From assembly GCA_009694365.1 (NCBI GenBank), contig SHVE01000007.1, forward strand, positions 1-64,000: a stretch of DNA of 64,000 nt, in the 5' to 3' direction. The notes below the pieces were generated by a model. It saw only the letters and a program-made list of their open reading frames with translations, was not told where the DNA came from and made no database searches. Numbering within the stretch: position 1 is the first letter of the stretch; every line of letters starts with the position of its first letter. A program made the position numbers and the translations under genes. Origin of the DNA: Thermoleophilia bacterium (GTDB lineage: Bacteria; Actinomycetota; Thermoleophilia; Miltoncostaeales; Miltoncostaeaceae). Below are positions 12,074 through 43,001 of this stretch, in pieces.

Positions 12074-12260
12074 CCCCCGGTGTGTGACACCTAGGACTTA
12101 TCCCACTTGGGCTGAGTCAAGTCGTCTGAAGTGGTGTAACCGACTCGTCGGCGTTAGGCAGCAGCCTGCAGCGTGGCCACCTCCTTGCTCTCCTCGCTGC
12201 GCGTTACACCACTTCTACCGACGTGACCGGAGTGTCCGGTGTCCGACACCGGGGTGTGGG
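12074..12260. repeat. Composite palindromic repeat element (REP/MITE-like)
   Basis: This 187-bp intergenic block is bounded by two copies of the dispersed palindromic motif, GGTGTGTGACACC (12079-12091) and GGTGTCCGACACC (12238-12250). Inside is a perfect 13-bp inverted repeat, GAAGTGGTGTAAC at 12128-12140 and its complement at 12203-12215, separated by 62 bp. There is no coding potential. The layout resembles a non-autonomous element or a REP doublet between two convergent genes, and the hairpins could also end transcription from both sides. Confidence 0.7.
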
Positions 12261-14663: not shown

Positions 14664-14810
14664 CGCTGGTCCGACCTTCCGAATTGTTACGTGTCAGACA
14701 CCGGGGATGACGTCGGGGGGACGCGGAGCGCGGGAGAATTCACGCGCCCGCGCTGATCCGACCCTCCGAAGTGGTAAGTGTCAGACACCGGTGTCAGACA
14801 CCGGTGGGGT
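14664..14810. repeat. Duplicated unit carrying the GTGTCAGACAC palindrome
   Basis: Two related units of about 45 bp lie 87 bp apart. Each has a GCTGrTCCGACCyTCCGAA block followed by a short AT-richer stretch and the palindromic core. The first core is GTGTCAGACACCGG (14691-14704). The second is doubled, with GTGTCAGACACCGG at 14779-14792 and again from 14791. The remaining part of the gap between the FmdB-like gene and the LCP gene holds no gene. The motif is the same as at 39.1-39.3 kb and 43.0 kb. Confidence 0.75.
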
Positions 14811-37700: not shown

Positions 37701-38996
37701 GAGTCGCGGTACCGATGCGGTCGTGCCGAAGCCCCCCGGGTTTGTGAGTGTGACGCCCGCACCCCGCAACTCGTCGGGGCTGATCTTCCCCACTCGCGAG
37801 CGCTGGATCAGATCGTCGAACGCCGCGCGAAACTCTTGGAACCCCAGCGCCGTGCAGTCACGGATGACCGGCACGAGTAGCGAGTGGCTGCCGTCCTTGC
37901 GCTCCACATCCACCGCGATGCCCAGATCGATCGTGTCGCGCGGAACCTTGTGTGGGCTGCCGTCCACACGGGCAAAGGCCGTGGCCATCACCGGTGTCTG
38001 TTCGATTGCTCGGACGATGGCCCACGCGACGATGTGGGTGAACGACAACTTGCCGCCACCGGCCACGGCGAGGGCTTCGTTCAGCCGCCGGCGCTCGGCA
38101 TCGAGCATGGCCACCGAGATGGTGCGGAATGTGGTGGCGGTGGGGATGGAGCGGCTCTCGTCCATGTACTCGGCCAGTGCGGCGGCCGGCCCCGTGAGCT
38201 TGACCAGAGCCTCCCCCGGGGGTGGTGCGGGGACGGGTATCCCGCCGCTTCCCACCTCGCCCTGTCCCGCGTGCTCAACGTCGGCGCGACGGATGAGCCC
38301 GCCGGGGCCGGTGCCGTCGACGGTGTCGAGGTCGATGCCCTGTTCAAACGCCACGCGGCGGGCGATGGGTGACGCGGCCACATCACGGAGCGGGGGCGGA
38401 GGGGCGGACGCGGCAGCAGGTGGGGTGTGGGCGGTCGGAGCGCCGTTGGTGGCCGCGATTCCCACGGCGATCGTGCCGAGGGGCCTCGTCACATCGAACA
38501 CCGCGCCGTCGGGTGCGGCGATCTCGGCCAGCGTGCCGGTGGCGGGGGAGGGGACCTCAAGATCCACCTTGTCCGTGGAGACCTCCACCACGATCTCGTC
38601 ACGGGCCACCGGGTCGCCAACGGCCTTCTTCCACGCCACCACGGTGCCCTCGGTCACCGACTCCATGTCGGGGAGTTGGATGGGCACCAGCGTGGCGGGA
38701 CCCGCATCCGTGCGGGGCGCGGCAGCGACGGGGGATGTGCCGTTGTTGGACACCATCTCGCCGAGAAGGGCACCCACCGCAACGGCGACCCCGGCCGCGG
38801 CGCTGATGCTCTGCAAGACACCCGACGCCGGCGCCGGGATCTCCACGTCCACCTTGTCCGTGGTTACCTCGAGAAGGGTCTCGCCCTCCTCGACCGTGTC
38901 ACCGATGGACTTCTTCCACTCGATCACGGTTCCCTCGGTCACCGATTCGCCGAGGACCGGAAGGAGGATATGGATTGTCGTTCCCGCAGTTGTCAC
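34746..38996 (-). CDS. kgd: Self-contained 2-oxoglutarate dehydrogenase E2-E1 fusion with two lipoyl domains
   Basis: One 1416-residue protein spans most of the complex that turns 2-oxoglutarate into succinyl-CoA. From GTG 38996 the order is: lipoyl domain 1 (about 7-82, lipoyl Lys 48 in TDKVDVE), lipoyl domain 2 (about 102-178, Lys 143 in TDKVDLE), a Pro/Ala linker, and a peripheral-subunit-binding domain (about 207-241, SPIARRVAFEQGIDL). The E2 acyltransferase follows (about 270-510, ending STYDHRVIQGAESG, with Gln at the HxxxD Asp as in mycobacterial KGD). Then comes E1 (about 540-1410, with FSLEGCDALIPMMDETIE, GMAHRGRLASI, LHGDAAF-type IHGDAAFPGQGVVAETLNL, FEYGYSTQAPEALVLWEAQ and LLLPHGYEGNGPEHSSGRPE). 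Mycobacterial KGD and corynebacterial OdhA match E2 core plus E1 but have no lipoyl domain. An in-frame ATG 39209 exists, but the extra 71 codons come from repeat DNA. Confidence 0.93.
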   Translation of the reverse strand: MTTAGTTIHILLPVLGESVTEGTVIEWKKSIGDTVEEGETLLEVTTDKVDVEIPAPASGVLQSISAAAGVAVAVGALLGEMVSNNGTSPVAAAPRTDAGPATLVPIQLPDMESVTEGTVVAWKKAVGDPVARDEIVVEVSTDKVDLEVPSPATGTLAEIAAPDGAVFDVTRPLGTIAVGIAATNGAPTAHTPPAAASAPPPPLRDVAASPIARRVAFEQGIDLDTVDGTGPGGLIRRADVEHAGQGEVGSGGIPVPAPPPGEALVKLTGPAAALAEYMDESRSIPTATTFRTISVAMLDAERRRLNEALAVAGGGKLSFTHIVAWAIVRAIEQTPVMATAFARVDGSPHKVPRDTIDLGIAVDVERKDGSHSLLVPVIRDCTALGFQEFRAAFDDLIQRSRVGKISPDELRGAGVTLTNPGGFGTTASVPRLMSGQGTIVATGGITWPSGLEDVPGALLAQWGVSKVVTVTSTYDHRVIQGAESGAFLRDIAGLLAGDDAFYDEIRTQLSLPSLPPLTLDHTADASSPAAPDMPATADEETLRSLAGAMSLLRSFRTYGHLAAHLDPLGSAPPGDPSLDPAWVGLTHEMMAMVPASLLGVAVPGITFADAYPALTATYCSTIAYELEHISDHDQRQWLREFIESGQVRTPLPPGGRTAVLDRLISVEVFERFLRRTYIGQKTFSLEGCDALIPMMDETIEMLAANGVPEVIIGMAHRGRLASITHTVGRPPESVLAEFEGHVEDANDEHPDGEPYAAAGDVKYHLGAEGTFASRTGKTVHVTLAANPSHLEQVNAVTEGRTRARQTLRAEPIATHDASRAVAVLIHGDAAFPGQGVVAETLNLQDLAGYTTGGTIHVIVNNQVGFTTDPEDSRSTRYASDLAKGFDMPIVHVNADDIDACMAAVRLAVTYRERFQDDVLIDLIGYRRLGHNELDEPAYTQPVMARTIKDHPTVARLYADRLIADGVITDGDYTTMTQAAENRMAAAHKRVVSGLEQGSDHDTSSDKRRRARTSQVKTAVSATSLRSLNEQLHLPPDGFEVHAKLTPQLDRRRAALSQDSAITWAHAEALAFASLLTDGVPIRLTGQDVARGTFSQRHVELHEISHNESYIAHKGEVYVPLQHLLRAKASFEIHNSPLSESACVGFEYGYSTQAPEALVLWEAQYGDFANGAQIMIDQFISAGQAKWGVHSRLTLLLPHGYEGNGPEHSSGRPERFLRLAAEGNMRIANCSTADNYFHLLRRQGLLDEIRPLVVFTPKSLLRAKAASCSLEDLTKGRFQPVIPDPRAVGHESKVTRLMLCTGKIFHELDAHADRENHPELAIGRIEQLYPFPREELLALYESYPGLETVQWVQEEPRNMGAWSFVTRRIERLLPITAFGYVGRPARASVSEGYPQTHQLEQQRVLEDALVGREMTFS

Positions 38997-39111
38997 GTTC
39001 GGCACCCGAGGATACGCCGGCACACGGGGGATGGCCCGTGCCTCGGCCACCATGAAACACCGGGGTTCACATGCGATCCCGAGCGGCGCGGGCGGAGACC
39101 GGTGCCCGGCC

Positions 39112-39319
39112 CGTAACAATTCCTCGGACCCTTGCCACCCCCGAGACCCCGGTGTCTGACACTTAACAATTATTGACGGCACGGGCACATGGGCGCCAGT
39201 ACCGGACACCCGACATCGGTCTCAGGCACGTCACAATTCCTCGCACCCCTGCCACTCCCGAGACCCCGGTGTCTGACACTTAACAATTGAGAACACCGGT
39301 GTCCGGCACGTAACAATCG
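39112..39319. repeat. Tandem 60-bp repeat with GTGTCTGACACTTAACAATT palindrome
   Basis: Two 60-bp units, 39112-39171 and 39229-39288, match at all but about four positions. Each runs from CGTmACAATTCCTCG through CCGAGACCCCGGTGTCTGACAC to TTAACAATT. A third partial motif (ACCGGTGTCCGGCACGTAACAAT) lies at 39295-39317. The region fills the gap between the E2-E1 gene and nadC, both on the minus strand. Otherwise 38997-39392 has no gene. The repeat belongs to the same family as at 12.1, 14.7, 43.0 and probably 53.2-53.4 kb. Confidence 0.85.
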
Positions 39320-39392
39320 GCCCCCGATGCGCCTCCCCGGCGGTCGCGACGAAATGGCGACGGGATGTCGTCATTCGCCGGTCCGTGGGCGG

Positions 39393-40205
39393 TCAGTCCA
39401 GATCGAGCGCGAGGTCCAGGACGGGCGCGGAGTGAGTGAGAGCGCCCACGCTTACGAAGTCCACGCCACACGCGGCCGCGCGTGCCACCCCACCTAAGTC
39501 CATGCCACCCGACGCTTCGGTCAGTGCCCGTCCCCTGCACATGGCGACGGCTTCGCGCATGGTCGCGTCGTCCATGTTGTCGAGCAGAACCCGGTCGGCT
39601 CCGGCGTCGAGGGCCCGCCGCACTCCGTCGAGGTCGTCGGCCTCCACTTCGACGGGCACGCCGGGAAGTTCCTCGCGCGCGCGGGCGACCGCGACGAGCA
39701 GGTCAACGCGGCCCACGGCCAAGTGGTTGTCCTTGATCAGCACCATGTCGAATAGGCCCATACGGTGATTGGTACCGCCGCCGGCCACCACCGCCCGTTT
39801 CTCGAGCACCCGCCAACCCGGGGTGGTCTTGCGTGTGTCGAGGACGGTCGCGGGATGCGCGGCATCCACGAAGCGAGCCGTCATCGTGGCGATTCCCGAG
39901 AGGTGTGACAGTCCGTTGAGGAGGGTGCGCTCGGCCGACAACACCGCACGTGCGGTGCCGTCCACGCCCAGCACACTCTCGCCGGGCACAATCTGCGCAC
40001 CGTCGACGGCCTGCCAGATCCCCTCCACTCCCGTCTGGCGCAGCACCTCCTCGCCGAACGCGCGTCCGGCCAGAACGCCACTCGACCGTGCGACCACCCG
40101 GCCGCGGGCGCGAGCCCCGTCGGGGATGATGACCAGCGATGTGACGTCGCCGCGCTCGCCCAGGTCCTCGGCCAGAGCCGCCGCGACGAGGTCGGCCACG
40201 TGCAT
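39393..40205 (-). CDS. nadC: Quinolinate phosphoribosyltransferase (nicotinate-nucleotide pyrophosphorylase)
   Basis: The 270-residue enzyme makes nicotinate mononucleotide from quinolinate and PRPP in de novo NAD synthesis. Family landmarks are LAEDLGERGDVTS, LNGLSHLSGIATMTARFVDA, TRKTTPGWRVLEKRAVVAGG with the following GGTNHRMGLFDMVLIKDNH, VEVEADDLDGVRRAL, LLDNMDD and EASGGMDLGGV. The ATG overlaps the nadA stop by one base. It is the last gene of nadB-nadA-nadC. Confidence 0.96.
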   Translation of the reverse strand: MHVADLVAAALAEDLGERGDVTSLVIIPDGARARGRVVARSSGVLAGRAFGEEVLRQTGVEGIWQAVDGAQIVPGESVLGVDGTARAVLSAERTLLNGLSHLSGIATMTARFVDAAHPATVLDTRKTTPGWRVLEKRAVVAGGGTNHRMGLFDMVLIKDNHLAVGRVDLLVAVARAREELPGVPVEVEADDLDGVRRALDAGADRVLLDNMDDATMREAVAMCRGRALTEASGGMDLGGVARAAACGVDFVSVGALTHSAPVLDLALDLD

Positions 40206-42975: not shown

Positions 42976-43001
42976 CAATTGTTAAGTGTCAGACACCGGC
43001 G
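42976..43001. repeat. Single copy of the AATTGTTAAGTGTCAGACACCGG repeat
   Basis: CAATTGTTAAGTGTCAGACA (42976-42995) followed by CCGGCGG is an inverted copy of the unit at 39.1-39.3 kb. It supplies the stop codon (TAA) and the last four codons (Val-Ser-Asp-Thr) of the small minus-strand gene at 42982. Confidence 0.8.

Follow-up and report, generated by a model that had tools for sequence, protein, structure and literature searches.

The window analysed here, a 64,000-nt stretch of DNA from a small actinobacterial genome (1.50 Mb in 19 contigs, 98.1% complete), contains a cluster of short repeats at 39.1–39.3 kb, flanked on one side by nadC and on the other by a kgd-like gene for 2-oxoglutarate dehydrogenase on the minus strand, whose start we place near 38996 by comparison with congeners. 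The dehydrogenase gene itself contains a 122-nt stretch twice (38542–38663 and 38827–38948, 74% identity), corresponding to its two lipoyl domains. The cluster consists of five direct copies of a 23-nt unit, CCGGTGTCTGACAC[T/G]TAACAATT, all in one direction: two match the consensus, one is close to it and two are degenerate, and no inverted REPIN arrangement is found among them. A sequence-only reading had described two 60-bp units with about four mismatches, and both its coordinates and its description hold: the units, at 39112–39171 and 39229–39288, differ at exactly 4 of 60 bases. A repeat search of the window shows that these units are part of a 77-nt repeat with 87% identity and a spacing of 117 nt.

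Repeat copies and related features in the window and in its genome of origin (contig handles are given for genome positions)
Feature	Position	Strand	Basis
Degenerate repeat copy CCGGTGCCCGGCCCGTAACAATT, first in cluster	39099–39121	+	matrix score 19.3 (control maximum 14.4)
Tandem duplication	39112–39288	+	each 60-bp unit combines the tail of one copy with a further, complete copy; 4/60 mismatches
Consensus repeat copy CCGGTGTCTGACACTTAACAATT	39149–39171	+	exact match
Degenerate repeat copy TCGGTCTCAGGCACGTCACAATT	39216–39238	+	matrix score 21.8
Consensus repeat copy CCGGTGTCTGACACTTAACAATT	39266–39288	+	exact match
Variant repeat copy CCGGTGTCCGGCACGTAACAATC	39296–39318	+	matrix score 27.3; also found by the GGTGNCNGNCACKTAAC search
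Degenerate repeat copy	12077–12099	+	matrix score 19.6
Palindromic copy without TTAAC tail, CCGGTGTCGGACACCGG	12230–12252	-	matrix score 16.5
Repeat copy CCGGTGTCTGACACGTAACAATT	14682–14704	-	1 mismatch to consensus
Repeat copy CCGGTGTCTGACACTTACCACTT with a second core immediately abutting	14769–14803	-	12-mer and 23-mer searches
Consensus repeat copy CCGGTGTCTGACACTTAACAATT	42977–42999	-	exact match
Second-subfamily sites, window	53219, 53356		
Second-subfamily sites, genome	C1:80296, C2:145168, C2:157381, C3:64863, C8:65670		

The repeat is real, and it is a short palindrome with an AT-rich tail. Its exact 12-mer core, GGTGTCTGACAC, occurs 46 times genome-wide (24 forward and 22 reverse), compared with 0.35 occurrences expected under a first-order Markov model and none for the reversed-pattern control, while the 23-mer CCGGTGTCTGACACTTAACAATT with up to three mismatches occurs 26 times, again with a control count of 0. 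In all copies read, the conserved neighbour of the palindrome is TTAAC, which reads GTTAA on the opposite strand. According to a simple codon-based gene caller, which assigns approximately 86% of the window to coding sequence, 38 of the 46 cores are strictly intergenic and one lies at a gene edge; nine non-coding copies fall between convergent genes and eight between divergent genes. One 'internal' copy (L016), which has no tail and sits deep inside a long coding ORF, was taken as a chance match. An Rfam search returned tRNA matches only. The motif thus neither occurs at chance frequency nor sits mainly inside genes, and the dispersed, intergenic, palindromic and clustered character proposed from the window alone agrees with the genome-wide counts and placement.

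We scanned the window with a position matrix trained on the 26 genome copies of the 23-mer, which detected ten copies; the five in the cluster score 19–46, compared with a best score of 14.4 in five resampled control windows. The matrix copies starting at 12077, 12230, 14682, 14769 and 42977 correspond to the recurrences of the core that had been noted at 12.1/12.2, 14.7/14.8 and 43.0 kb. Within the window by itself, an 11-mer with up to two mismatches is not significantly enriched (26 occurrences against 23.5 expected); hence, the significance of the repeat rests on the 12-mer and the 23-mer. The sites at 53.2–53.4 kb, previously taken for a diverged form, belong to a second subfamily in which the palindrome is followed by a different flank, CCTTNTCCACAGG. 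Read on the other strand, this flank gives CTGTGG, closer to the classical GTGG tag, and the second subfamily adjoins another type of RAYT gene in G002, G003, G004 and G017.

The surroundings of the cluster were compared with those in seven congeners where nadC and kgd adjoin each other. The distance between the nadC stop and the lipoyl motif is 429 nt in the window's genome versus 112–204 nt in the seven congeners, and the array was not found in any of their nadC-kgd gaps, indicating that it is lineage-specific among the genomes compared. The block TATCCTCGG, or a close form of it, is retained ahead of kgd in most of the seven. Within the array the layout of a degenerate copy followed by a consensus copy is itself repeated, which suggests that the array was enlarged by tandem duplication after its arrival. 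Scanning the array for promoters and terminators gave no hits, with no terminator-like site in 38990–39420.

The absence of a transposase from the window holds for the whole assembled genome. A PF01797 search of this genome gave no match, whereas 18 of the 41 genomes searched have one, and a profile built from 11 RAYTs of relatives detected neither a gene nor a gene fragment here at E≤10, while recovering 15 genes in 11 congeners. The REP-associated tyrosine transposase that a REP interpretation would call for is therefore not found, as no Y1/RAYT gene is present in the 98%-complete assembly, and any mobilisation here must be either in the past or due to an unassembled gene. Of seven proteins tested from the relatives, three reach the cut-off of the NCBI REP-associated tyrosine transposase model, and four score below it with E-values of 1e-17 or better. 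Among solved structures, E. coli TnpA-REP (4er8) is the nearest in sequence. The genus RAYTs measure approximately 180–220 aa, and the three scanned (L054, L058 and L066) lack a C-terminal HTH; a scan of four long proteins (L046, L064, L153 and L200) gave weak to clear matches to it. The nearest transposases in GTDB are mostly of approximately 280 aa, with repeats such as GGGGTCAGGTC recurring on both sides; an 11-mer shared across both flanks was present at 50 of 67 of these loci, compared with 12 of 134 controls.

In the congeners, the repeats are physically linked to RAYT genes. In G005, G010 and G018, copies of CCCCGGTGYCAGGCACTTAACC, that is, CCCCGGTG[T/C]CAGGCACTTAACC, lie on both sides of the RAYT gene; elsewhere in the genus, RAYTs are enclosed by related palindromes that have a different flank (TCCACAGG) or no tail. 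G031, from another family of the class, contains 32 cores identical to those of the window's genome, and one of its RAYT genes is placed between two of these cores, with its stop codon inside the downstream core. A degenerate search with GGTGNCNGNCACKTAAC across 25 relatives gave 16 copies in G005, 25 in G007, 21 in G010, 27 in G013, 71 in G014 and 12 in G015, next to 23 in the window's genome, with control counts of 0 in all seven. The dominant palindrome differs between species groups, with the same layout, and the form of the window's genome is nearly absent from its congeners. In a protein tree that took in the nearest GTDB matches, class-level relatives and E. coli, one supported clade (100/97) unites the RAYTs flanked by TTAAC and another (100/96) the tail-less ones, within a clade of the whole genus (99/95); the protein clades thus correspond to the types of repeat.

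The proposal that the palindrome forms a hairpin stands for two inverted copies and is weak for a single one. A single TTAAC-form copy folds poorly as DNA (-1.8 kcal/mol, z -0.5), and compensatory change was seen in just one of five stem pairs, which is weak as proof of a single-copy hairpin; the solo palindrome form reaches -10 kcal/mol (z -4.9). Hairpins of REPIN type, built from two inverted repeats, were observed in G007, G010 and G013. In these genomes +/- pairs at most 65 nt apart number 11 in G007, 7 in G013 and 5 in G010, with no other order present, and the 20 pairs that we read are built, with minor variation, as CCCCGGTGTCAGGCACTTAACCG - spacer - CGGTTAAGTGCCTGACACCGGGG, spanning 46–82 nt with a mode of 61 nt. 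Three of these REPINs were folded and gave DNA hairpins of 24–32 bp (z -10 to -14). Such pairs are nearly absent from the window's genome, where close neighbours are direct in seven cases and inverted in four and where one perfect inverted TTAAC-form dimer was found (C1:38342-38379, z -11.6). Given the bracketing of RAYT genes and the hairpin pairs in sister species, the repeats of the window's genome look like the leftover of that system.

Further comparison is afforded by the mrp-fdxA locus, where a RAYT gene is present in 8 of 18 genomes and absent from the remaining readable ones. The REP-RAYT-REP unit behaves here as a presence/absence unit: G010 and G013 differ by a segment of approximately 690 nt, whose flanks share an overlap of approximately 12 nt where the site is empty, and the ends of the G010 unit are the same as REPIN ends. 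A similar empty site is found in the early-branching G008. The window's genome is likewise empty at mrp-fdxA, and a search there for the scar of a lost transposase found none. Because this genome is the deepest branch of a two-gene species tree with midpoint rooting, the tree is compatible equally with loss of a RAYT from this locus and with its never having been there. Depending on the species, this intergenic site (L230–L247) is taken by RAYTs of one or the other of two flank types, which may reflect a hot spot or else an ancient inherited position with diverged repeats.

Together, these observations make it highly probable that the cluster belongs to an orphan REP-like family descended from a RAYT transposase system of the genus. 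The REP/RAYT interpretation first drawn from the window is upheld as to the kind of element, which is tied to RAYT genes in sister species, and needs qualification in three respects: the family is an orphan in this assembly, it has no GT[AG]G foot, and its single-copy hairpin is weak. The nearest competing explanation accepts the same REP system and places a cognate RAYT in the cell, missing only from the assembly, so that the family would not be an orphan. Repeats are points at which assemblies break, and RAYT genes sit between them; a repeat is located 194 nt from the start of a contig (C14); and several repeat-rich congeners with fragmented assemblies likewise have no RAYT found. Against this, the genome is nearly complete in only 19 contigs and yields not even a fragment at E≤10, and REPIN pairs are frequent in G007, G010 and G013 and nearly absent here, as loss predicts. 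We therefore regard an assembly gap as unlikely and loss of the transposase as the likely course of events.

Explanations that dispense with a transposase fare worse. If the palindrome were a transcription-factor operator, its copies would form a regulon, and an inverted repeat of the form GTGTC-N-GACAC that often lies upstream of genes, at times in clusters, is what one would look for; but nine non-coding copies between convergent genes, a conserved 23-mer with a one-sided tail, a dominant palindrome that varies among congeners (with the local form nearly absent from them) and related repeats that flank RAYT genes and make REPINs render this very improbable. Equally slight is the chance that the repeats are retained because they act as terminators or as hairpins affecting mRNA stability: the well-folding solo palindrome and the intergenic placement would suit them, but the TTAAC-form hairpins are weak, eight non-coding copies lie between divergent genes, and neither the terminator scan of 38990–39420 nor the Rfam search points to such elements. 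A side role in termination or stability would be compatible with a REP origin and would not exclude it. A purely local tandem repeat, with dispersed matches due to chance, would agree with the 11-mer count within the window, but the 46 exact 12-mers and 26 23-mers found genome-wide, against control counts of 0, reduce the probability of this reading to almost nothing.

For the favoured explanation, descent from a RAYT system, the following course may be envisaged. In sister species the unit CCCCGGTGYCAGGCACTTAACCG terminates a short RAYT gene on either side, and in inverted orientation it likewise terminates the non-autonomous REPINs of 46–82 nt. By homology with HUH enzymes, the RAYT would recognise the hairpin and the TTAAC-side flank on single-stranded DNA, and presumably by the same cutting chemistry would cut and rejoin it, such that pairs spread into intergenic DNA. 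Mobility of the repeats, including past mobility in the window's own genome, would follow from this scheme. The RAYT would then have been lost from this genome, with nearly all pairs gone and the solitary copies drifting, while direct arrays such as that at 39.1–39.3 kb would have persisted, enlarged by tandem duplication.

REP/RAYT systems are known mostly from Proteobacteria, with a GTAG guide. As in the canonical GTAG/GTGG REPs associated with TnpA-REP in E. coli and in the REPtrons of Stenotrophomonas (PMC2817692, PMC6006769, PMC8266576), the repeats described here are short, palindromic, intergenic and present in many copies, occur in clusters and inverted pairs, and, in the relatives, bracket a RAYT gene with its own repeat type. 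Canonical REPs, however, carry GT[AG]G beside the hairpin and a basal stem of at least 7 bp (PMC6006769, PMC3733652), whereas here the GTAG/GTGG foot is absent from the copies in the window's genome, which carry TTAAC instead, the single-copy stem is 4–5 bp, no RAYT is present in the genome, the RAYTs of the relatives come from another branch and the host is actinobacterial. The GTAG motif is crucial to the binding and cutting of single-stranded REPs by E. coli TnpA-REP (PMC8266576); by analogy, a TTAAC-side guide with the same chemistry acting on REPIN hairpins would be the simplest reading. The pairs in the congeners resemble described REPINs (PMC3116915, PMC8049555) in that inverted repeats with a variable spacer form one long, dispersed, non-autonomous hairpin, and differ from them in sequence, host phylum and nearly perfect 24–32 bp stems; in the window's genome, moreover, the repeats left are mostly single or direct.

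The closest parallel to the transposases themselves is found in the TIRtrons and their TIRYT proteins (PMC3733652; subclass 2.1 of PMC6006769). The GTDB proteins nearest to the genus RAYTs have features that fit this group: they are long, HTH-bearing where scanned and flanked by inverted repeats of the GGGGTCAGGTC type. In contrast to TIRYTs, the genus RAYTs are short and lack the HTH where scanned, their terminal repeats consist of an internal palindrome plus TTAAC, and these repeats reach 12–71 copies per genome in several species. The features of the relatives fit the genus RAYTs being short relatives of HTH-bearing, TIR-flanked RAYTs (TIRYT or subclass 2.1). No REP-like sequences were found for subclass 2.1 RAYTs (PMC6006769), and moderately abundant TIR families organised like REPs were noted earlier (PMC3733652), a precedent because of which the TTAAC system does not count as a new kind. 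A search confined to the open-access literature, with subscription papers outside its scope, found no actinobacterial REP/RAYT case. We tentatively propose, with confidence falling slightly short of even, that a RAYT branch akin to HTH-bearing, TIR-flanked transposases shed its HTH while its terminal repeats became a true REP/REPIN system, guided by TTAAC rather than GTAG, and that the repeats outlive repeated loss of the transposase in the genus, leaving live, recently orphaned and decaying populations. The large RAYT subclass that the genus proteins resemble most was reported to be without REPs (PMC6006769); here, relatives of that branch have both REPs and REPINs, with a different flank. 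The approximately twenty sister species, with the transposase present or not, thus allow a test of how a TIR-type transposon becomes a REP system, and also of how a repeat population decays once its transposase is gone.

A third type of repeat, consisting of tail-less palindrome clusters (GGTGYCWGRCACC, GGTGACTGTCACC), flanks both sides of the RAYT genes of a separate clade: L059 in G016, L061 in G014 and L062 in G009. In G014, whose 71 GGTGNCNGNCACKTAAC copies are the most TTAAC-form repeats in the genus, the sole RAYT found is of this tail-less type, and its TTAAC-form repeats are likely a second orphan population.
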